The notes under the pieces are model-generated. The model ran no database searches and had not been told where the DNA came from. It was given only the letters and a program-made list of their open reading frames with translations. Source: Acidimicrobiales bacterium (GTDB lineage: Bacteria; Actinomycetota; Acidimicrobiia; Acidimicrobiales; Bog-793). Taken from it: a stretch of 39,003 bases of DNA. Where the stretch lies: positions 1-39,003 of the forward strand of contig DATLTN010000020.1 in the NCBI GenBank assembly GCA_035533595.1. The letters are read 5' to 3'. The position numbers were made by a program, and so were the translations under genes. Shown here piece after piece: positions 1-22,212 of the stretch (positions are counted from its first letter, which is position 1; each line of letters opens with the position of its first letter).

Positions 1-1
1 G

Positions 2-298
2 GGCGCCATCGCCGCGGTCTTGGACGGGGCCTCCTGGCAGCGGTGCAGAACACACGCCATGCGCAACCTGTTGACCCGCGTCCCGAAGTCCGCCCAGGGC
101 CTCGTCGCCACGCTCGTGCGGACGATCTTCGCCCAGCCCGACGTCACCCAGGTGAAGGCGCAGTTCAATCGGGTCGTCGACCAGCTCGAGACCCAGTTCC
201 CCGCGGTCGCCGAGCTCCTCACCGACGCCGAGGGGGACCTGTTGGCGTTCAGCGCGCTCCCGCCCGAGCACTGGCGCCAGATATGGAGCAACAACCCC
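2..298 (+). CDS. IS256/Mutator-family transposase, 5' exon (partial, interrupted by group II intron)
   Basis: This is the C-terminal half of a DDE transposase of the IS256 (Mutator) family. It is open from the window edge, so the N-terminus lies outside. The segment RTHAMRNLLTRVPKS, the helical region after it, and the end PPEHWRQIWSNNP are characteristic of the family. Reading stops matching at NNP (position 298), where GTGCG, the consensus group II intron 5' end, begins. The protein resumes in frame at 1507 with [11 protein letters not shown]. Joining 2-298 to 1507-1746 restores an uninterrupted family sequence. The break falls just before the ER-L-N motif, which is thought to carry the third catalytic acidic residue, so the unspliced gene should be inactive. 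Confidence 0.88.
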
Positions 299-584
299 GT
301 GCGCCACGAGGCGCCATCTGACCCGGCGGAGATGAAAGGGCTCCGCCTTCGGGCTGTCGCAGCGGCCTGATGTAGCTGGAGGCAGCCCGACCCGGGAGAC
401 GCCGGGGAGGGTGGGAGCAGCCTCGACAACGACGGAACGGGTCGGCACTGCCAGACGGCTCGGGTCCGGCAAGCAAGACGGAGAGGTGTACGAGTGCAGA
501 AACCAGTGGTGGAACCCCCTCAAGTGGACCGCCGGCTCCAACCTGGCGGATATGGGCCGGTCAGCAATGCACGCCTCGGAGTAG

Positions 585-1385
585 TCGAACCGAGGCGACT
601 CTCGTTCAGTCTTCGAGCGGGACAACAACACCGGCACGCCCCAGGGAGGGATCCTCTCGCCGCTGCTCGCGAACATCGCCCTGTCGGTCATCGACGAGCA
701 CTTCGTCGATGCCTGGCAGCAGATGGGTAACTCGGGCGCACGTCACCGGCGCCGGAAGAAGGGGCTCGCCACCTACCGCCTCGTCCGCTATGCGGACGAC
801 TTCGTGGTTCTGGTGAAGGGCACCCGCTCCCACGCCGAGGACCTGCGTGAAGAGGTGGCAGCGGTGCTCTTACCGATTGGCCTTCGCCTGTCGGAGGAGA
901 AGACGAAGATCGCCCACATCGACGAGGGGTTCGACTTCCTCGGCTTCCGCATCCAGCGCCAGCCGAAACGAGGCTCGGGGAAGCCGACCGTGTACACCTT
1001 CCCGACCAAGGCCGCACTGGCCAAGGTGAAGACCAAGGTGCGCACGATGACCAGGGAGGCCACCAACCAGCCGCTCGCCGTCCTTTGCTACCGGCTCAGC
1101 CCGGTCGTTCGAGGATGGGTCAACTACTTCCGGCACGGCACGTCGAAGGCCACCTTCGACTACCTCCGTCGCTTCACCTGGAGGCGGGTCATCTGTTGGC
1201 TCCGCCACAAGCACCCGAAGGCCAACTGGAAGCAGCTCCGTCGCCGCTATCTCCCTGGGTGGTGGCCGACGGACGGCAAGGTCACGCTGTTCGACCCGAT
1301 GACGGTGCCGGTCACCCGCTACCGCTACCGGGCGAACAACATCCCTTCGCCGTGGACGAGCAGCGCGATCGAAGAGGCGGCATGA
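585..1385 (+). pseudogene. Group II intron reverse transcriptase/maturase, N-terminally deleted
   Basis: The frame opens after a TAG at 582-584 with no plausible start. From about 612 it reads family sequence: VFERDNN, then TPQGGILSPLLANI (RT motif 4), then the YADDFVVL catalytic box (motif 5), FLGF, and the maturase (GIIM/X) segment with RGWVNYFRHG and WKQLRRRY. RT motifs 0 to 3, roughly 200 or more residues, are missing. An ATG at 723 would give 220 aa but would leave out the TPQGG motif, so it is unlikely to be a functional start. No HNH endonuclease domain is evident after the maturase domain. Reverse transcription activity should be lost. Confidence 0.85.
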
Positions 1386-1407
1386 CCGACTGGCACGAGC
1401 CTGTGGA

Positions 1408-1441
1408 GAGCCGGATGCGTGGGAACGCGCACGTCCGGTTC
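1408..1441 (+). ncRNA. Group II intron domain V
   Basis: This is a 34-nt hairpin, the canonical domain V length. It begins GAGCCGG and ends CCGGTTC, with the AGC catalytic triad at 1409-1411, a short bulge, and a GGAA (GNRA) tetraloop. Domain V is the catalytic heart of group II ribozymes, and all its hallmark positions are present. Domain VI follows at about 1442-1506. Confidence 0.85.
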
Positions 1442-1506
1442 GGTGAGCGGGCCGGGGAAACGGATGCCTGCGCAAGCGGCACACCGCGCCCCGGCCCGAC
1501 TTCTAC

Positions 1507-1746
1507 CAGGAGCGCCTCAACCGCGAGATCCGCCGCCGCACCGACGTCGTCGGCATCTTCCCGAACCGCGCCGCCTGCATCCGCCTCGTCGGGGCGGTGC
1601 TCGCCGAGCAGCACGACGAGTGGGCGGTCGCCCGGCGCTACATGAGCCAGGAGTCGCTCGCGAAGACCAGGGTGCGGGTCCTCGTCGGCGGCGCCATCGA
1701 CAACAAGGAGGTGAGCACGTCGGCCGAACTCGAGGCCGTCAGCTAG
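1507..1746 (+). CDS. IS256/Mutator-family transposase, 3' exon
   Basis: This is the C-terminal 79 residues of the transposase that starts before the window. It opens with [19 protein letters not shown], continues with the conserved [14 protein letters not shown], and ends at TAG 1744-1746. It lies in phase with the 5' exon once the intron is removed. Alone it has no start codon and would not be translated. Its intact frame argues that the intron insertion and deletion are fairly recent, or that splicing still takes place. Confidence 0.88.
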
Positions 1747-1803
1747 CAGCAACACCAATGGTTGGTGTGGTGGTCGTCATACACCACTGGTCTGGGCTTG
1801 GCC
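1747..1803 (+). mobile_element. Probable right end of the IS256-family element
   Basis: Just after the transposase stop there is a perfect 7-bp hairpin, ACACCAA-TGG-TTGGTGT (1752-1768). After it comes a CATACACCACT-type sequence that resembles terminal inverted repeats seen in actinobacterial IS256 elements, from memory. The left end is outside the window, so the repeat cannot be paired and the exact tip is unknown. Confidence 0.3.
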
Positions 1804-1844
1804 CGCCTCTTCGAGGTTGCGGCCGGTGCGACCCGCGATTTGAG

Positions 1845-2810
1845 TCACTTCCTGAATCGCTCGGCGCGAAAGCCGGAGTCGTCACCGAGGTGGAAGTAGA
1901 GGTGACCGTGTAGGGCTTCGGCGTCTCCGAGGGTGGCCCAACCTCGTCCGGTGATGTGGCCCCCCTCGTCGTTTCCGTCCCAGCTGAACTCGACATCGAA
2001 GCGATCGACGTCGGAAATGCGCCAGTCGATCCACCCGGTGACCGCGATGAAACCGAAGCTGCCTCGGTGGTCGGAGGAGAACTCGATGAAGGCTGGTGCT
2101 ACCAGGTCGAGAGCCTCGCTATCCCACAGGTCCATTTCCACGATGTTCCATCTGCCCGTGATATCCCTCGCATCTGGACCGGGCTCCCCGCTTGACCTAT
2201 GAGCACTGTCGGAGGAGTCGGATCCGCCCCCCGACTCCCAGGTCCCGAGCGCGTCGCTCAATACCGCGAAGGCGCGATCCAAGCGCCTTCTTCGATTGGG
2301 ATTGATCTCGTGGTTCGCGTCAGCCGCCACGAAGCCGAGTAGCTCGTCGAGCTCGTCAGCGCTGGCCTCGAGGATGTTGTCCTCGCCGGAGGAACGCATC
2401 CTGTATACGAGGCGTTCGCACTCGACGTCGAGCAGGGTCAACTCCCGCAAAGCCCCAGCCAGCTCGTCGCTCAGGAATATCTCATGATTCGGGCCATTCC
2501 TGGTGTGGTTACCAGGGAGTCTGAGATCGAACGGCGACTCCTCCCACCCGCTGATCACTCCTTCGTCACCGCAGACGTTGCACTGCCACTCGATCGCAGC
2601 CGGAAGGTCAGCGCGGAACACGGCGATGTGCCCGGTGCAGGGTCGATTCCGAGGCCGACGTCGGCAAGCTAGAGCCGTGGTCCACGGCGTGCTCGCGTCG
2701 GCGGCAGTTGCAGCTTGAACGACCGATCCCAAGTGCTGGGCCATCTTGCGAGCTGGACCGGGCGCATCGTCGGGGATGTCCAAGAAGTGCCGTAGATCGG
2801 AGACGAACAT
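1845..2810 (-). CDS. Conserved hypothetical protein with four-cysteine N-terminal module
   Basis: I do not recognise a named function. The start chosen is the ATG reading MFVSDLRHFL (321 aa), because related actinobacterial hypotheticals, as I recall them, begin there; an upstream in-frame start at 2900 is possible. Three parts are visible. The N-terminal module has C49, C58, C77 and C80, the last two as CxxC, spaced like a small zinc-binding fold. A helical middle section is rich in Leu/Glu. The C-terminal domain (about 220-321) is aromatic and acidic, with WDGNDEG and HLGDDSGFRA, and resembles short stand-alone hypothetical proteins. It lies in accessory DNA between an IS element and a Fic gene, facing away from the latter. 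Confidence 0.7.
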   Translation of the reverse strand: MFVSDLRHFLDIPDDAPGPARKMAQHLGSVVQAATAADASTPWTTALACRRRPRNRPCTGHIAVFRADLPAAIEWQCNVCGDEGVISGWEESPFDLRLPGNHTRNGPNHEIFLSDELAGALRELTLLDVECERLVYRMRSSGEDNILEASADELDELLGFVAADANHEINPNRRRRLDRAFAVLSDALGTWESGGGSDSSDSAHRSSGEPGPDARDITGRWNIVEMDLWDSEALDLVAPAFIEFSSDHRGSFGFIAVTGWIDWRISDVDRFDVEFSWDGNDEGGHITGRGWATLGDAEALHGHLYFHLGDDSGFRAERFRK

Positions 2811-3032
2811 CGGTCGACGAATGTAAACGGCGGGTAAGCGCAAAATCGCGAATTGATCGATCGGTCGCACATGGGCTTGCTCGAATCGCGAACGGGGCAT
2901 CGCGCCGTGTCCCGCAGCGCCGAGTCCGCCTGGCCGAGTTGTGCTGTCTAACTAATCGTTCGTCTGCGCACGGCCCAGGTAAAGTCGTGCTGTTCGATTA
3001 TTTCGCCGCGTGCGCACAACATCGGAGGGGAC

Positions 3033-4022
3033 ATGCCCGGTCGCCCGAGGCGGGTTGAGATCTACAGCCGCCTCGACGAGGCGTTCGCCGAGCTGCACGA
3101 GCGCCTGGGCGGTCTCCCTGACCCCGCCGAGGCAGGGGGCATCTGGACGACCATCTGGTACGAGGAAGCGCACCACTCCACAGCGATCGAGGGCAACACC
3201 CTCGTTCTCAAGCAGGTCGAGGCGCTTCTCTCCGAAGGACGAGCTGTCGGCAACAAGGAGCTCGCCGAGTACATGGAGGTGAAGGGCTACGCGGACGCCG
3301 CGAAGTGGGTCTACGAACAGGCGCTCAAGCCCGAGCGCTCCGACGGCTCCGCGCTGATGCTCTCCGAGGTGCGCTGGATCCATCAGGTTGCGCTCGGCCC
3401 CGTATGGGAAGTTGCCCCTCATTCGCAGGCGACCCCCAGGGAATCACCGGGAAGCTTTCGCGAGCACGACATCGCGCCGTTTCCCGGAGGCATGAAACCG
3501 CCGAGCTGGCCCGAGGTGCCGGGCGCCATGCGAGAGTGGGTACGACGAGCCGACGCCCTCGCAGATGCGGCGTCGCCCTTCGAGGAGTTGGGATTGCTGC
3601 ACGCTCAATTCGAGCGAATCCACCCCTTTCTCGATGGAAACGGGCGCGCTGGGCGCCTGCTGATGAACCTCCTCCTCGTACGCCTCGGCTACGCCCCCGC
3701 CATCGTCTACAAGCGCGATCGCTCGAGATATTTGCGGGCGCTTCGCGCAGCTGACGACGGCGACCCGGGGGCGCTCGGAGAGATGTTGGCCCGCGCGGTG
3801 CTCGACAATCTCTACCGCTTCATCGTTCCAGCCGTTGCCGGGCCGCGGCGTCTGGTGCCGTTGGCCGCCCTCGCCGACGACCAGATTTCCGAAGGTGCGT
3901 TGAAGATGGCCGCGAGCCGGGGGCGGTTGCGCGCTCAGAAGGGGAATGACGGGCAGTGGCGCAGCAGTCGCGCTTTTGTCGACGAGTACAAGGCCAATCG
4001 TCAGGTCCACCGGACCAGCTGA
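3033..4022 (+). CDS. Fic family protein (putative AMP-transferase)
   Basis: Fic-domain proteins usually transfer AMP from ATP to a hydroxyl group on a target protein. The core motif HPFLDGNGRAGR spans residues 197-208, with catalytic His197. An inhibitory-helix motif of the (S/T)xxxE(G/N) type is seen as STAIEGN (49-55) in the N-terminal region. That makes this a self-inhibited class II Fic protein, with Glu53 expected to block ATP. The C-terminal 60 residues may be a winged-helix-like tail. The ATG follows a good ribosome site (GGAGGGG). No separate antitoxin gene is adjacent, consistent with internal inhibition. The gene sits inside the likely integrated element. Targets cannot be told from sequence. 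Confidence 0.9.
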   Translation: MPGRPRRVEIYSRLDEAFAELHERLGGLPDPAEAGGIWTTIWYEEAHHSTAIEGNTLVLKQVEALLSEGRAVGNKELAEYMEVKGYADAAKWVYEQALKPERSDGSALMLSEVRWIHQVALGPVWEVAPHSQATPRESPGSFREHDIAPFPGGMKPPSWPEVPGAMREWVRRADALADAASPFEELGLLHAQFERIHPFLDGNGRAGRLLMNLLLVRLGYAPAIVYKRDRSRYLRALRAADDGDPGALGEMLARAVLDNLYRFIVPAVAGPRRLVPLAALADDQISEGALKMAASRGRLRAQKGNDGQWRSSRAFVDEYKANRQVHRTS

Positions 4023-4154
4023 CGAGAGGACCGCCGGCTCACTTGTTGGCTCACTCCTCTCCAAAACTGCCTGGAATGAGCCAGACAATGAAGACGGAGC
4101 GGACAGTAAAACCCCAGGTGACAGGACTAGGAAGGACTCGCTGGACGCTGTATC

Positions 4155-4204
4155 GTGCACTCGTAATGCGCAGGTCGTCGGTTCAATCCCGACCCCGGGC
4201 TCCA
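4155..4204 (+). tRNA. tRNA-Thr(CGT) 3' half, remnant (probable attachment site)
   Basis: Positions 27-76 of a tRNA are intact: anticodon stem GTGCA/TGCGC around loop CTCGTAA (anticodon CGT), variable loop AGGTC, T stem GTCGG/CCGAC around TTCAATC, acceptor strand CCCGGGC, discriminator T and an encoded CCA. No matching 5' acceptor (GCCCGGG) or D arm lies just upstream, so this is not a working gene. A clean 3' half is what a tRNA-targeting integrase leaves at the far end of its element. By that logic the element lies to the left and an intact copy should be further upstream, outside the window. Confidence 0.65.
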
Positions 4205-4233
4205 CAAAGTAGCTGGTGGTGTCGCCAACTCAC

Positions 4234-4318
4234 TTTTTGTCAGTGAGAGCAGTTTTTTGTCAGTGGCGTGTCAGTGACGACCTGGGCTTTCGCGCAGCTT
4301 TTTGTCAGTGCCCAGGTC
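4234..4318. repeat. Direct repeats TTTTTGTCAGTG with framing inverted repeat
   Basis: The 12-mer TTTTTGTCAGTG occurs three times on the plus strand (4234-4245, 4254-4265, 4299-4310), with a fourth shorter TGTCAGTG at 4269-4276. The last copy lies inside a perfect 9-bp inverted repeat, GACCTGGGC (4279-4287) and GCCCAGGTC (4310-4318). Repeated binding motifs like this are known at the ends of IS21-type elements and at recombinase or regulator sites. Which applies here is not settled. The location, 30 bp from the tRNA remnant, favours a recombination or transposon-end role. Confidence 0.6.
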
Positions 4319-4718
4319 AGAGGACTGTGGATAAGCCCCCCGCCCCCGCAGCGCCTGTGAGGAAGCGTCAACCCCTCTGGACCGCCGGACGAGACTGGCA
4401 GCCAGGACGTCGCGGAGATGGGAAACCGTGTCCCATACCGGCGCGTTCGCTGCGCGACGACAGCGAGTTTGACCGTTGTTATGGGGCTCTTCTCAGCGCG
4501 TAGAACGCCGACTCCGCGCTCGAATGGAACCACCATGACGACGACGTTCTGTCGCCTCACGGTCCGAGAGGGGGCGCCCTCGAGAACCTGCCGGCCAAAG
4601 GCCGTCTGAGCTCGGATCGCTAACGGACACGGGCGCCTGCCCAATCGAGGCAACCACTGCGCCGAGCGGGTGTTCTTCTAATCTCTCTCCAGCACGGCCT
4701 CTGCCGAACCAAACCCGT

Positions 4719-4979
4719 CTAGCCCGAGACGAAGCTCACCCGTAGCCGAAGTACGCCGTAGCGAATCCCCGTCGGGGCGCCCAAACATTCTTTGTCGCCG
4801 TTCGCCATCGGCTTGCAGCTGATTACGGGCACGGTCGTCCCGAGTTCAGTGGCTTTCTTCGCGGCAGTCTGACGGAACTTGGTGATCGCGCCTTGAAGTG
4901 ATTTTTCGAAAGCGATGGAGGTGAAGCTGGCTCCCGTCACCGTCTCAACCGGGGCACCGTGCAGAACCGCGGGACTTCC
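4719..4979 (-). pseudogene. Possible gene remnant, unknown
   Basis: An open frame of about 86 codons on the minus strand follows directly after a TAA, with no ATG or GTG near its left end that has a ribosome site; an internal GTG would give 73 aa. The sequence has two cysteines (ISCKP, KECLG) and a basic amphipathic stretch, and does not look like a shadow of another gene. It may be the C-terminal part of a decayed protein. The product is not recognised. Confidence 0.25.
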
Positions 4980-5166
4980 TTAGTCCGTGCGCCTCTCAAC
5001 GCGTGCTTGGAAGAGCGTGCCTTTCCCGCGCCGCGGCGCCTCCGTCGGGAACATACTGACTGATCCGCGAACCGCGGAGGCTCTTCCGCCCCGGCTGGCA
5101 AGAGCACATATCGAGACGGTGATGTGTCCCGCACGTCGCTCGGACCGGCCCCTAGCCTGGTTTCTC

Positions 5167-7062
5167 ATGCAGCTACGGGGTCGTGTCACGAACGTCCGAG
5201 CAACCCGGACGCCGTTGCTCCTGACGACTCTCTCCGTCGCTGGCCTCCTGGCCGCGTGCAGTAGCGCGTCAGCCGGACCGCAGACGACGATCGGGGCGTT
5301 CCTGACGGGATGGACGTCACGCAACTGGTCCTCGATGCGGCGCCTCGTGGCAGACCCGCCCGCCGCATTCGCGAGCATCAACGGTGCGGCGATTTCTGAC
5401 CTCGAAGTGACCAAGGCGAGCTACAAAGCTGGCGCACCCATCGTCTCTGGCACCGCGGCACGGGTCCCGGTGACCGAGCACCTCACGATCCCTGGGTTCG
5501 GTGTGTGGACGGTCCACACGACCTTGCACCTGGTGGAGCGTTCCGGTCGCTGGCTCGTGCAATGGACGCCCGAGACGATCGACCCGTCCCTCCGTCCAGC
5601 CAGTCAATTTGCCCTGACGGCGACCTGGCCGCCCCGTGCCCCAATTCTCGGCGCCGGCAACGTGGCGCTCACGGCCGAGGAGGAAACGGTGACTGTCGGC
5701 ATCGAGGGGAAATACGTGAAAGACCCGTCCTCGCTTTCAGCGGCGCTCGTCGCTGCCGGAGCGACGAGCGCGGAAGCGAGCGCCGCTCTCGCCACAGCGA
5801 AGGTGAAGCCAGCGTACTTCGAGCCCGTCTTCACGGTCTCATGGGCCCGGTACCTGCAGCTGAAGCCGACCCTCTATCCGCTACCGGGAACCGTTTTCCA
5901 GACCTCCGAGGCGCGCGAGGCCGTCACGCCGGGACTCGAGGCCCACCTCGTCGGGAGCGTGGGTCCGATCACCGCCCAGGAGCTGCACGCGCTCGGCGCC
6001 CCATATGACACGACGAGCGTCGTAGGCCAGACCGGACTCGAACAGTACGACCAGGCCCAGCTCGCCGGGACTCCCGGAACCACGATCTCGGTGGTGAGCG
6101 ATGACGGGTCGACGTTGGCGACGCTTGCGAGCAAGAAGCCGGTGCCCGGCACCCCGGTACGTACCTCCATCAACCCCACGGTGCAACGCGCCGCGGAGGC
6201 AGCGCTCGCGCACGAAGACAAGCCAGCCGCCCTCGTCGCCGTCGACGCCAGCACCGGCCAGCTGCTCGCCTCGGTGAGCGACCCGAGCAGTGACGCGTTC
6301 GATCAAGCTTTCGACGGGACCTTCCCGCCCGGCTCAACGTTCAAGACGATCACGAGCACCGCGCTCATCGAGCACGGTCTTTCACCCAGCTCGTCGGCAA
6401 GCTGCCCGACGACGATCACCGTCGGCGGCGAGCTGTTTCACAATGCCGAAGGTGACGCTCCAGTGCAGAACATGGCCCAGGCTTTTACCGAGTCCTGCAA
6501 CACCGCGTTCATTGGTCTCACGACGAAAAACCTCGATCCGGCGAACCTTCCCGCCGCGGCCGCCGAATACGACGTCGGCACGTCGCCCGACATTGGGCTC
6601 ACAGTCTTCGGCGGCAGCGTGCCGACGCCGACCAGCGCCGCCGGGCTCGCTGCCACCGCAATCGGTCAGGGCAGCGTGCTCGTCTCGCCGCTCGACATGG
6701 CGATGGTCGCCGCGGCGATCGATTCGGGGGTCGTGCGTGAGCCGCGCCTCGTGCTCGGGGCGCCGGACGACCGGGCACCGACCCACCGTCTGCCCACCGA
6801 CGTGGTGGATGATCTGCACGTGATGATGGCCGATGTCGTCGCGAGCGGGACCGCCGCGAACCAGGGTCTGCCATCCGGGACCTACGCGAAGACCGGGACC
6901 GCCGAGTACGGGAGTGGCAACCCGCTCCCGACCGACGCCTGGCTCATCGGCTTTCGCGGGAACGTTGCCTTCGCGGTGCTCGTCGTCGACGGCGGCTACG
7001 GCGGTCCGACCGACGGCCCAATCGCCGCATCATTTCTCAACGCTCTTGGCACGTCTGGTTAG
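5167..7062 (+). CDS. Class B penicillin-binding protein, lipoprotein, MecA-like layout
   Basis: This is a peptidoglycan D,D-transpeptidase acting on the outer face of the membrane. The start chosen is the ATG that gives a basic N-terminus, a hydrophobic stretch and a lipobox ending LLAAC (Cys31), so the protein is probably lipid-anchored; 631 aa. Residues about 40-150 resemble the NTF2-like MecA N-terminal domain and about 160-340 the dimerisation domain. The transpeptidase domain has STFK (390-393, nucleophile Ser390), SCN (443-445) and KTG (575-577). The order and spacing match active class B enzymes such as mycobacterial PbpA/PBP2a-like proteins. It stands alone, with no rodA/ftsW neighbour. 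A role in beta-lactam tolerance is possible but not shown. Confidence 0.9.
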   Translation: MQLRGRVTNVRATRTPLLLTTLSVAGLLAACSSASAGPQTTIGAFLTGWTSRNWSSMRRLVADPPAAFASINGAAISDLEVTKASYKAGAPIVSGTAARVPVTEHLTIPGFGVWTVHTTLHLVERSGRWLVQWTPETIDPSLRPASQFALTATWPPRAPILGAGNVALTAEEETVTVGIEGKYVKDPSSLSAALVAAGATSAEASAALATAKVKPAYFEPVFTVSWARYLQLKPTLYPLPGTVFQTSEAREAVTPGLEAHLVGSVGPITAQELHALGAPYDTTSVVGQTGLEQYDQAQLAGTPGTTISVVSDDGSTLATLASKKPVPGTPVRTSINPTVQRAAEAALAHEDKPAALVAVDASTGQLLASVSDPSSDAFDQAFDGTFPPGSTFKTITSTALIEHGLSPSSSASCPTTITVGGELFHNAEGDAPVQNMAQAFTESCNTAFIGLTTKNLDPANLPAAAAEYDVGTSPDIGLTVFGGSVPTPTSAAGLAATAIGQGSVLVSPLDMAMVAAAIDSGVVREPRLVLGAPDDRAPTHRLPTDVVDDLHVMMADVVASGTAANQGLPSGTYAKTGTAEYGSGNPLPTDAWLIGFRGNVAFAVLVVDGGYGGPTDGPIAASFLNALGTSG

Positions 7063-7311: not shown

Positions 7312-8553
7312 TCAGCCGCGTTGGAGGACGCGCGACTCGGCGAGCCGCTGGTGGTACTGAGCGACGTCCTCGACGACCTCTCGCGGGACATCGTCGGTGG
7401 CGACGTTCCCGAGCGCGTCCCTGATGCGATTGAGTGTCTCGTCGATGAGGTCGGTCACCGACGACTTGGGGAGCCCCCACGAGTGAGCTTCGAGCGCGAG
7501 CTGGATCCGGTTGACGCGGTCGATCCGCGTCTGCGCCCCGACGTACATCGCGAGGTTCCGCCCCGCCACGAACGACTCGGTCGGCGCGGCGTCATAGATC
7601 GGGGCGAGGGAGAGCGTCCCATCGGCAATGAGGAAGCCGTGGTTCTTGCCGTGGGCGTCGGTATTGCCGATCGCACATGTGAAGGTCATCGCCTCCGTGA
7701 GCGCGCGGAGCTCCCGGTCGACGTCGACGGCGTGAGCGGAAAGGAGCTTGGCGATCGCACCGTAGGAGGGGCCGCCAGTGGCCTGTTGGTACTTCCGCCG
7801 GTCCCGCGGGTCGCGTCCGAGTGCCTGACAGGCGTCCTCTTGGTGCAGGCGGCGGGTGACACCGTCGACGAGTTCCCGGTCGAAGCGCTCGACCACGAGC
7901 ACGTCGCGGCCGTCGACGACGAGGAGGTCAACGGCGGCCGCCGAGAGGCCCGCGGCCGCAGCGAGGTTCATCGCGTAGGCCTCGGCCCTTGCAAGGCCGA
8001 GATGCTGCGCCGGCGCTGGCTTCATGATGTGGGTCGAGGGAGCACCGTTGGCAGGAAGTGCCCAGCCGTCGGGCGTCTTGCAGACGAGGAGCTTCGATTG
8101 CAGGCCCCCGAGGGAGATCCCCGATTCGGCCGTGTCGCCGAGGGGGTGGGCGGGGAGGTTGGTGATTGCCTCGGCGAGCTCGTCGTCGGTGATCGGTTTC
8201 GGCCGGCCTGGTGGCGCCGGCTCTCTGCCCTCAGGAAGGAACGCGACCGCGCCGGCGCACTCACGGCCGATGCGGCGGAGGAGCCCGAACGCGTCACCTC
8301 GGCGGACGTCGTAGAGCGACTCGAGGACGGTGCGGGCCTCGCCCTCAGGAAGCACTCCCTCGAGCCAGTATCCGACCACGTCCCCGTCGTAGGGCTGCGA
8401 CCGCACAGGAAGCGACGTCGACAGCACGATCGAGCCGTCACCGGAGCGCTGCTGCTCGTCGGGCTCGTACTGGAGGCGGATGTCCGAGCGGGCACGCTGC
8501 AAAGTGGCGACTACCCGCCCGTCGATCCAGATGTTGAGGACGTCGCCAGGCAC
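7312..8553 (-). CDS. hipA: HipA family serine/threonine kinase toxin
   Basis: HipA toxins phosphorylate a tRNA synthetase (GltX in E. coli) and induce growth arrest and persistence. The 413-aa protein has the N-terminal HipA domain (about 1-110), the glycine-rich GGLQSKLLV segment, STHIMKP with the ATP-binding lysine, VERFDR, and the catalytic loop GNTDAHGKN (296-304) with Asp299. The next metal-binding Asp is in PIYDA. All kinase elements look intact. It starts with GTG immediately after the TAG of hipB (TAGGTG, no gap), so translation of the two is likely coupled. The stop is about 250 bp from the penicillin-binding protein gene, facing it. Confidence 0.93.
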   Translation of the reverse strand: MPGDVLNIWIDGRVVATLQRARSDIRLQYEPDEQQRSGDGSIVLSTSLPVRSQPYDGDVVGYWLEGVLPEGEARTVLESLYDVRRGDAFGLLRRIGRECAGAVAFLPEGREPAPPGRPKPITDDELAEAITNLPAHPLGDTAESGISLGGLQSKLLVCKTPDGWALPANGAPSTHIMKPAPAQHLGLARAEAYAMNLAAAAGLSAAAVDLLVVDGRDVLVVERFDRELVDGVTRRLHQEDACQALGRDPRDRRKYQQATGGPSYGAIAKLLSAHAVDVDRELRALTEAMTFTCAIGNTDAHGKNHGFLIADGTLSLAPIYDAAPTESFVAGRNLAMYVGAQTRIDRVNRIQLALEAHSWGLPKSSVTDLIDETLNRIRDALGNVATDDVPREVVEDVAQYHQRLAESRVLQRG

Positions 8554-8811
8554 CTACTCGACCGTGACCTTCGTGCCACGCGGTACCGCGATCAGCTCGT
8601 AGCCGCAGACGCCGAGTGCCTTCATGATCCTGCCGAGCACGGCGAGGCGGCCCTGTTCGATCCGGCGGATCGAGGCCCGTTCTGCTCCGATGCGCGCGGC
8701 GAGCTGCTCCTGGCTCCTTCCACTCGCCTTCCTGACAGCTGCGATTGCATCGCCAAGCGACGCTTCGTCGCGGATGCGGTACCACCGAGGTTGGTGCGTC
8801 GAAATTGCCAC
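8554..8811 (-). CDS. hipB: HipB-type helix-turn-helix antitoxin
   Basis: This is an 85-aa XRE/HipB repressor and antitoxin that neutralises HipA and represses its own promoter. The helix-turn-helix runs from about residue 18 to 70 (SLGDAIAAVRKASGRSQEQLA, then GAERASIRRIEQG). The short C-terminal beta segment (GYELIAVPRG) matches HipB proteins, which pair through this strand. The GTG start, at 8811, lies 21 bp from a palindrome with the same half-site spacing as E. coli HipB operators. It is the first gene of the hipBA pair. Confidence 0.9.
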   Translation of the reverse strand: MAISTHQPRWYRIRDEASLGDAIAAVRKASGRSQEQLAARIGAERASIRRIEQGRLAVLGRIMKALGVCGYELIAVPRGTKVTVE

Positions 8812-19887: not shown

Positions 19888-21042
19888 TCAGTACGAGCGC
19901 GGCATGCCGAGGACGTTCTGCCCGAGATAGGCGAGCACGAGGTTGTTGCTCACCGGCGCGACCTCGAAGAGGTTGGTCTCGCGGAGCTTGCGCTCGATGT
20001 CGTTCTCGACCATGAAGGCGCTGCCCCCGAAGGCGGTGACGGCGGCCTCGCCGGCCTGGCGGGAGGCCCGAGAGGCGAGGAGCTTCGCCATGTTCGCCTC
20101 CGGACCGCAGGGACGGCCGGCGTCGAAGAGCTCCGCGGCGCGGTCGCGCATCAGCGCCGCCGCCTCGACCTCGGCGTGCGCCGCCGCAATCGGGAACTGC
20201 ACGCCCTGGTTCTCCCCGATCATCCTGCCGAAGACCTGCCGGGTGGAGGCGTAGGCGGCGGCACGGTTGACGAAGAAGCGGCCGTCGCCGATCGCCTCCG
20301 AGGCGATCAGGCAGCGCTCGGCGTTCCAGCCGTCGATGATGTAGCGGAAGCCCTTCCCCTCCTCGCCGACGAGGCCGCTCGCGGGCACGTGCAGGTCGGT
20401 GAGGAAGACCTGGTAGCTGTGGTGGTTGAACATCAATGGGATGCGCTGCCAGGTGACGCCCTCACCGGCTTCGCGCAGGTCGACGAGGAAGACCGAGAGG
20501 CCGTCGGTGCGGTGCTCGCTCTCGCCCGCCGGCGTGCTGCGCGCGAGCAGCAGCAGCAGGTCCGAGAACTCGACGCGCGAGATGAAGGTCTTCTGCCCGT
20601 TGATCACGTACTCGTCGCCGACGCGCGTCGCGCGCGTCGAGATGCGGGTCGTGTCCGAGCCGGCGTCGGGCTCGGTGACGCCGAAGGCCTGCAGGCGGAG
20701 CGTCCCCTTCGCGATGTCGGGGAGGTAGCGCGCCTTCAGCTCCTCCGAGCCGTGCCGGAGCACCGTGCCCATCGTGTACATCTGGGCGTGGCAGGCCGCC
20801 GCGTTGCCACCCGAGCGGTGGATCTCCTCGAGGATCACCGAGGCTTCGCCGATCCCGAGGCCGGCGCCGCCGTACTCCGGCGGGACGAGGGCCGCCAGGT
20901 AGCCGAGCTCGGTGAGCCGCTCGACGAAGGCCTCGGGGTAGGCGGCGGCGCGGTCCACCTCGCGCCAGTACGCGCCGTCGAAGGCCTCGACGGCGCGTCG
21001 CACCTCCTCGCGCAGGACCTGGCGCTCCTGTTCGTTCGGCAA
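19888..21042 (-). CDS. Acyl-CoA dehydrogenase
   Basis: A 384-aa FAD enzyme that introduces an alpha-beta double bond in an acyl-CoA. The N-terminal helical domain, the middle beta domain (QAFGVTEPDAGSDTTRI, then VINGQKTFIS) and the C-terminal helical domain are all present. The likely catalytic Glu lies in LFEVAPVSNN, at the position of YEG in medium-chain enzymes. The start is a TTG with GGAGG five nt upstream; the frame is open far beyond, but family similarity begins here and the length is typical. It leads the pair with the CoA-transferase gene. Confidence 0.9.
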   Translation of the reverse strand: MPNEQERQVLREEVRRAVEAFDGAYWREVDRAAAYPEAFVERLTELGYLAALVPPEYGGAGLGIGEASVILEEIHRSGGNAAACHAQMYTMGTVLRHGSEELKARYLPDIAKGTLRLQAFGVTEPDAGSDTTRISTRATRVGDEYVINGQKTFISRVEFSDLLLLLARSTPAGESEHRTDGLSVFLVDLREAGEGVTWQRIPLMFNHHSYQVFLTDLHVPASGLVGEEGKGFRYIIDGWNAERCLIASEAIGDGRFFVNRAAAYASTRQVFGRMIGENQGVQFPIAAAHAEVEAAALMRDRAAELFDAGRPCGPEANMAKLLASRASRQAGEAAVTAFGGSAFMVENDIERKLRETNLFEVAPVSNNLVLAYLGQNVLGMPRSY

Positions 21043-21204
21043 CGACTCCTCCGTCCCTCGCCGCGCCGTCGAACGGGCGTGGCGAGGCGATGCTAAAGCC
21101 CCCGCCACCGGCCGTCCGCCTGCCGGAGCGAGCAGCGGGTAGCGGCCGACGTGGCACGATGGCACCGTGGCGCCGGTGACCGAGCACGATCTGCCGCTGC
21201 GCCC

Positions 21205-22212
21205 GTGAGCGCGTCCCACCTCGTGCTCGCCGCGGCCGCGGGCACCCATACCCCCTTCGCGTCCATCCACTACTGGCAGGCGATCATCCTCGGCCTCATC
21301 CAGGGGGTGACCGAGCTCTTCCCGGTCTCGAGCATCGGCCACACCGTCGTGCTGCCGGCACTCTTCGGCTGGCACAACGTCGCCAACGCGCAGTCCCGCC
21401 CGGAGTCGTTCTGGCTCGCCTTCCTCGTCGGCCTGCACGTCGGCACGGCGCTCGCGCTACTCGCCTTCTACCGTCGGGACTGGCAACAGATCGTCGGCGG
21501 CCTCTACCACTCGGCGCGGCGGCGGAAGATCACGACCCCCGTCGAACGCCTCGGCTGGCTGCTCGTGCTCGCCACGATTCCCGCCGGGATCACCGGCGCG
21601 GCGCTCGAGCACGAGTTGCGGGTGCTCTTCGCGAAGCCCCTCGCCGCCTCGTGCTTCCTCATCGTGAACGGCTTCATCCTCCTCGGCGGCGAGGTCTTCC
21701 GCCGTCGCTCCGAGGTCCAGGAGCGCCGCCGGACGCGGATCGAGGCGCGACGGGCGCGGGTGGCCGCGGTGAACGCGCTGCGCGACCCGCAGGCCCCCCC
21801 GCCTCCGGCCACCCACGTCGGTCAGCAGCGGCACCTCGCCTCGCTCGAGCTCCGAGAGGGTTTCCTGATCGGCGTCGCGCAGGTGTTCGCGCTGATCGCC
21901 GGGATCAGCCGCTCGGGGATCACGATCGTCGCCGGACTCGTGCGCGGCCTCGACCACGAGGACGCCGCCCGCTTCTCCTTCCTGCTTGCGACCCCGGTGA
22001 TCCTCGCGGCAGGGGTCTACAAGTTGCCGGACCTGCTCGGACCACTCGGCAACGGCGTCCGCGGACAGACCGTCGTGGCCGCCCTCTTCGCCGGGGTCGC
22101 GGCGTGGTTCTCGGTGCGGTTCCTCTCGCGCTGGTTCACCACCCGCACCCTCATGCCCTTCGCCGTGTACTGCCTCATTGCAGGGAGCCTTCTCGTGGCC
22201 CGTTTCGCATGA
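21205..22212 (+). CDS. uppP: Undecaprenyl-diphosphatase UppP (BacA)
   Basis: UppP dephosphorylates undecaprenyl diphosphate, recycling the lipid carrier for peptidoglycan synthesis; overproduction gives bacitracin resistance. The family signatures are QGVTELFPVSSIGH (glutamate-rich motif near the N-terminus) and AGISRSGITI (the PGxSRS motif, with Gly-Ile in place of Pro-Gly). Eight or so membrane helices are visible. The GTG start at 21205 (335 aa) is chosen because the preceding residues are Arg/Ala-rich and unlike the family; 21151 is an alternative. An extra basic loop of about 45 residues lies between the helices near 21700-21840. The stop overlaps the glgP start (ATGA). Confidence 0.92.
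   Translation: MSASHLVLAAAAGTHTPFASIHYWQAIILGLIQGVTELFPVSSIGHTVVLPALFGWHNVANAQSRPESFWLAFLVGLHVGTALALLAFYRRDWQQIVGGLYHSARRRKITTPVERLGWLLVLATIPAGITGAALEHELRVLFAKPLAASCFLIVNGFILLGGEVFRRRSEVQERRRTRIEARRARVAAVNALRDPQAPPPPATHVGQQRHLASLELREGFLIGVAQVFALIAGISRSGITIVAGLVRGLDHEDAARFSFLLATPVILAAGVYKLPDLLGPLGNGVRGQTVVAALFAGVAAWFSVRFLSRWFTTRTLMPFAVYCLIAGSLLVARFA

Follow-up and report, generated by a model that had tools for sequence, protein, structure and literature searches.

The window, by which we mean the whole stretch of 39,003 nucleotides analysed, is the entire contig C20 of a genome (G000) of 2.79 Mb in 73 contigs. On its forward strand, positions 4157-4215 are identical at 59/59 positions to C28:36370-36428 of the same genome; the shared block consists of 48 nt of the 3′ half of a tRNA-Thr(CGT) gene (4157-4204) and 11 bp past the CCA. 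On C28 the block belongs to an intact tRNA-Thr(CGT) gene called by ARAGORN (G000:C28:36343-36417), and that contig ends 672 bp beyond it. Neither ARAGORN nor Rfam called a tRNA at window position 4155. The initial annotation had read 4155-4204 as a perfect tRNA 3′ half lacking its 5′ half. The first part of this needs a small correction, in that 49/50 positions agree with the last 50 nt of the intact gene, position 4156 differs and identity starts at 4157; the second part stands, as the best match to tRNA positions 1-26 anywhere in 3901-4160 of the window is 14/26. The last 34 nt of the tRNA, allowing up to 3 mismatches, occur at two sites in the whole genome, C28 and the window (reversed control: 0), and chance is excluded as the source of the duplicated block.

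The DNA to the left of the fragment opens inside an insertion sequence. The middle part of an IS256/Mutator transposase (2-301, forward strand) matches residues 242-339 of the 418-aa IS256 transposase of Pseudonocardia alni (65% identity). A group II intron remnant follows within the transposase (299-1506, forward strand; 5′ GTGCGCC at 299 by eye, Rfam match at 1406-1506, ends approximate), then the C-terminal part (1507-1746, forward strand; reference residues 340-399, 68%) and the right end of the IS (1760-1790, forward strand), an inverted repeat that matches two left-end blocks on C28 (L002 1837 and 1912). The intron thus splits the transposase between reference residues 339 and 340, and its own reverse-transcriptase part looks truncated (ORF 723-1385). 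Two genes lie between the IS and the tRNA fragment. The first, at 1845-2900 on the reverse strand, encodes a 351-aa protein to which we assign no function: nothing in Pfam, PADLOC, PHROGs or NCBIfam matches it at E 0.001, and its residues 31-220 match hypothetical proteins of actinobacterial plasmids (56% identity over these residues in the top plasmid match). Its matches are partial throughout, 118 plasmid records in all, with none covering more than 80% of its length, two at 60-80% identity and the others lower. The second gene (3033-4022, forward strand) encodes a Fic-domain protein (PF02661, E 1e-17) with the sequence HPFLDGNGRAGR, which we take to be the Fic motif; PADLOC matches it to SoFic (5.9e-29), and it scores far below the NCBIfam SoFic cut-off.

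The 121 bp directly before the tRNA fragment carry features that recur elsewhere. A twin direct repeat, GGCTCAC-TTGTT-GGCTCAC (4036-4054, forward strand), which would be the integrase arm sites of an attR whose core is the 59-bp block, is found again next to tRNA-Thr 3′ halves in G021 and G001, genomes of two other genera of the family. A CAGGT(G/C)A box (4115-4130, forward strand; -42 from the core) and TGGACG (4142-4147, forward strand; -15) occupy the same places in these two genomes; the box also stands at -41 or -43 in two islands at tRNA-Lys, and TGGACG at -14 in one of them (G240). The spacing of repeat and box in G021 and G001 is identical to that in the window. The exact repeat GGCTCACTTGTTGGCTCAC, which starts 121 bp before the core, was found with up to 2 mismatches in 3/35 family genomes (our own, G021 and G001, all exact), a count that is weak by itself, as the reversed control matched 4 times in 4 genomes; every real match in the family genomes adjoins a tRNA-Thr 3′ half at about equal distance. 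The arrangement is not one kept in all relatives, which agrees with the initial annotation. Anchored at the core, identities over the 140 bp to its left are 74 for the window and G021, 74 for the window and G001 and 79 for G021 and G001, with shuffle maxima of 56, 53 and 53.

Among genome contigs the exact motif GGCTCACTTGTTGGCTCAC has three matches, two of which are the G021 and G001 records themselves (JAJZKA010000098.1, an Actinomycetes MAG, and JAODBN010000130.1, an Acidimicrobiaceae MAG). L089, the remaining match, and all 7/7 viral contigs with the motif have no tRNA half alongside (none within 260 bp), and these loci, in which no tRNA was found, were rejected as relatives. Paired TTTGTCAGTG occurs in 16 stretches of viral contigs, 10 of them below 50% GC, with no common context established. 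The 69-nt tRNA-Thr called by ARAGORN in L056/L087 is the attR fragment, its 5′ half replaced by other DNA. The conserved DNA is on the left side of the 3′ half, so this is also the side of the element, as the initial annotation had it. The genes on either side show no synteny in the 17 relative loci compared, so that no empty site could be shown; the lists of relatives include no other genome of the same genus.

Across six attRs, the CAGGT box stands at -41 to -43 in five; that of the tRNA-Lys island in G053 has no box. The window's own box at 4115 differs by 4 mismatches from the form CAGGTCAGNNCACTG. Over the whole flank, the window attR is not clearly more similar to the three tRNA-Lys attRs than shuffled sequences are (510, 22 and 128 of 1000 reach the score), so that agreement with the tRNA-Lys attRs is limited to short boxes and their spacing.

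The other end of the element is marked on C28. Starting 38 bp after the intact tRNA there is an array of the form CTGTATCG...GTTGGCTCA...GCGATACAG, of which the single GTTGGCTCA lies at C28:36465. The genome has this array again on C69, at equal distance after tRNA-Lys(CTT), and G001 has it on contig C2, 41 bp after tRNA-Thr; 0/1000 shuffles reach the score of the C28 array against either. Islands made by other integrases at tRNA-Thr (G002 and G031), taken as controls, have no match to the C28 array. Arrays on G001 C113 and in G046 fall in between (3 and 1 of 1000 shuffles do as well), and the attL arms of a tRNA-Lys island in G258 are at background level (215/1000). On both C69 and G001 C2 the array adjoins the gene for a protein with an HNH_3-like N-terminus and a tyrosine-recombinase domain. 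In the G001 C2 integrase both Pfam matches fall just below the cut-offs and there is one stop; in a relative in G240 both are above them. The C69 protein has an open reading frame and PHROGs matches to integrase and HNH endonuclease; its gene (G000:C69:437-2269, L083) sits beside tRNA-Lys(CTT), and the contig breaks about 437 bp past the gene. HNH motifs are expected to have a histidine before the first cysteine. Six aligned relatives of the integrase retain C..E..CVR..HL in the HNH-like part, and none has a histidine directly before the first cysteine.

Relatives of this integrase (E ≤1e-40) occur in 17/298 genomes of the order. Eleven of the 15 integrase genes fetched (three further matches were left out) lie beside tRNA-Lys; by the other four no tRNA was seen, and their tRNA side is at most 280 bp from a contig end. 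A downstream 3′ half is present within the fetched DNA in 3/14 tRNA-bearing loci examined (G240, G053 and G164). A search for the attR of our own tRNA-Lys island on C69 returned the intact gene only, and the stretches read further along G258 C35 hold no 3′ half. The tRNA-Lys(TTT) island of G164 (C108, 9522-13148; L128) has an integrase of the HNH_3-like kind and carries a TrwC relaxase, on account of which some islands of this kind may be conjugally mobilisable. In the open-licence literature, no title seen concerned an HNH and tyrosine recombinase fusion and no paper was found on an Acidimicrobiales genomic island with an integrase at a tRNA; the term HNH does not occur in the available main text of a survey of tyrosine recombinases (PMC8138268). 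The arm sites and their spacing suggest that the integrase was of the HNH_3-like/tyrosine-recombinase kind, as found beside tRNA-Lys here and in relatives and beside tRNA-Thr in G001.

We therefore regard the fragment as very probably the attR of a small integrated island that is now a remnant without its integrase. A tyrosine integrase would have recombined the island's attP, which carried the tRNA-Thr(CGT) 3′ half, with its counterpart in the chromosomal tRNA gene, the crossover probably falling in the anticodon loop. The tRNA would have been rebuilt at the C28 end, with the displaced 3′ half left at window position 4157. The island's own integrase seems to be gone, perhaps through an IS-linked deletion, and its usual place after the attL arms is taken by about 0.3 kb of other DNA and then by the IS256 copy, itself later split by the group II intron. 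That the truncated tRNA is instead a pseudogene left by duplication or deletion without any integration, as a lone fragment of this kind could be, is hardly credible, given that three genera share the attR flank with its fixed spacing, that the intact copy has attL arms and that the 3′ halves of G002, G021 and G001 likewise start in the anticodon stem region. Duplication alone was rejected on the strength of the shared att flanks.

How the two contigs are joined matters for what the island contains. C28 terminates and C20 opens inside an IS256-type transposase, on the same strand, with the N-terminal part on C28 (P. alni residues 1-85, 45%); the intact tRNA predicted by the initial annotation is thus present, and the transposase part at its contig end resumes at the left edge of the window. 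Because the reference residues end at 85 and resume at 242, about 156 codons are absent between C28 and C20. From this we infer the order C28 to C20 and, between them, only about 0.47 kb of missing sequence; with nothing further in the gap, the island would measure about 5.3 kb. The two IS256 parts have different top records among plasmids, and the one P. alni transposase fits all three pieces in order; another full-length Mutator transposase (L124) fits the pieces poorly. The inverted-repeat block of the IS ends is shared at 18/19 positions (0/1000 doublet shuffles are as good). At the right end this block adjoins the outer one, and at the left end their starts are 75 bp apart. All this fits one IS spanning C28 and C20, perhaps after an adjacent deletion.

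Further DNA might lie in the gap, and even an integrase, flanked for instance by two copies of the IS; the island would then be larger and autonomous. There is no target-site duplication around the IS (the outer 9 bp on the two sides differ), as two copies would give, and short integrase pieces exist at the starts of C55 and C57 and on C66. We consider this unlikely. The transposase pieces on C28 and C20 complement one another without overlap, as parts of a single transposase. With repeated copies of the IS, contig breaks would be expected at its edges and not inside it. The C55 and C57 pieces, for their part, lie near tRNA-Val and tRNA-Pro. One other PF00872 copy was found in the genome, inside C56, 3 kb from its end and with a stop. 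The usual place of the integrase is moreover filled by other DNA: the HNH-like part starts 134-287 bp past the tRNA in 11 loci that have the integrase N-terminus (L119 is without that part), whereas here the IS starts 288 bp past the tRNA, with no integrase match in the DNA ahead of it. The initial annotation had expected an integrase beyond the left edge of the window, and this expectation found no support, with none on C28 after the tRNA and none in window 1-4157. PF00589 marks 11 places in the whole genome, 0 of them on C28 or C20. In tblastn, the C69 integrase finds nothing on C28 (L002, L005) or in the window at E 1e-3, and four integrases searched to a limit of E 10 give a best E of 0.06. 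Another tRNA-Thr attL, on G001 C113, has no such integrase in the following 4 kb. The best reading is still that of an integrase-less remnant carrying the Fic gene and the 351-aa ORF, with the contig order as given above.

The right flank of the fragment has features of its own. Three TTTTTGTCAGTG repeats (at 4234, 4254 and 4299) and CAGGTCAGAGGACTG at 4313, together spanning 4234-4327 on the forward strand, lie outside the island and could be the relic of a second att array. TTTTTGTCAGTG occurs nowhere else in the genome with up to 1 mismatch, a pair of it was not found in 396 other genomes of the order, and CAGGTCAGAGGACTG is the one place in the window that matches the attR box form CAGGTCAGNNCACTG when 2 mismatches are allowed. 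In addition, none of 34 other family genomes has DNA related to 4205-5166. These observations would suit an island to the right of the fragment, or two islands in tandem. Yet there is no second 3′ half to the right (the genome has two copies in all), no relic of the four integrases tried rises above background in 4205-5200, and sharing of the flank with other islands was found for the left side only, which makes such an arrangement quite improbable. Against plasmids, 4205-4340 has no match; against phages, 4140-4340 has 40 weak records, and among the 20 listed the matches cover the tRNA part of the query. DNA from 4205 on should be host DNA, and the repeats could possibly be the decayed end of an older island or second att array, added to the left island, or an IS end.

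Two further observations concern the window at large. A HipA-like protein and an adjoining HTH (HipB-like) gene (7312-8811, reverse strand) lie between PBP-like and YkuD genes whose relatives are close neighbours on G001 C110; this locus is possibly another insertion. An ARAGORN call of tRNA-Arg(ccg) at 20261-20343 (forward strand) is probably false, as it has no Rfam support and a long ORF on the opposite strand (19888-21438) covers it.

A different tyrosine integrase lies beside the same tRNA-Thr(CGT) in G002, contig C6 (6321-13088, L054), in a 6.6-kb island, and the 3′ half 6.6 kb further on begins in the same anticodon-stem region. tRNA-Thr is thus a hot spot for at least two kinds of integrase, and within this family tRNA-Thr(CGT) is a hot spot of integration. 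Entry of mobile DNA via a tRNA gene is an ordinary route into bacterial genomes, and here it places a Fic gene and a plasmid-related gene of no assigned function on a mobile island. Although the integrase is missing, the arm sequences link the site to the kind of integrase that has an HNH-like N-terminus. One could speculate that the island is a non-autonomous but still mobile passenger, its att arms read in trans by the integrase of the tRNA-Lys island on C69, whose HNH-like N-terminus would possibly bind the arms; a single integrase clade would then serve islands at tRNA-Lys and tRNA-Thr and move Fic or defence cargo that lacks an integrase. We hold this to be a tentative and rather doubtful proposal, and mobilisation in trans is directly testable.

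A close likeness exists with the G021 island (JAJZKA010000098.1), in which the attR repeat, the spacing and the tRNA 3′ half are the same as in the window. Its cargo (C167, 6474-14179, L056; PADLOC matches to ZacA, ZacB and ZacC) consists of ZacABC-type defence genes and SSB inside an attR of the window's layout, as against Fic and the 351-aa protein here; that the cargo differs while the end is kept is as expected of mobile islands. The tRNA-Lys integrase islands of the same order (C69 of our own genome, and G240, G053 and G164 with both ends) resemble it in the arm array, which on C69 is at the same distance, and in the CAGGTCA box at -41 and -43 in G240 and G164. They differ in the tRNA used, in attR repeats of GCGTATC type and in the presence of the integrase; the G164 and G240 islands carry a TrwC relaxase or a RecD-like helicase. 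Elements known as CIMEs have retained their att sites, have lost their integrase and can be moved if an integrase acts in trans. The island described here would be like them in retaining att sites without an integrase. Islander describes a tRNA gene and a displaced fragment with the island between them, with a 3′ fragment in 3760/3919 islands and an anticodon-centred site, one of two common site classes (class A), in 2083 (PMC4383910). Like these tDNA islands, ours has an intact tRNA and a displaced 3′ fragment, and the block fits a class A site (PMC4383910). Islander requires an integrase in the interval (PMC4383910), and there is none in the assembled part here; it also requires the 3′ fragment to lie downstream in the same orientation on the same replicon, and here the orientation agrees by way of the transposase parts, with the ends on two contigs. 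Islander allows lengths of 2-200 kb; with some 0.47 kb between the contigs, the island would be about 5.3 kb long.
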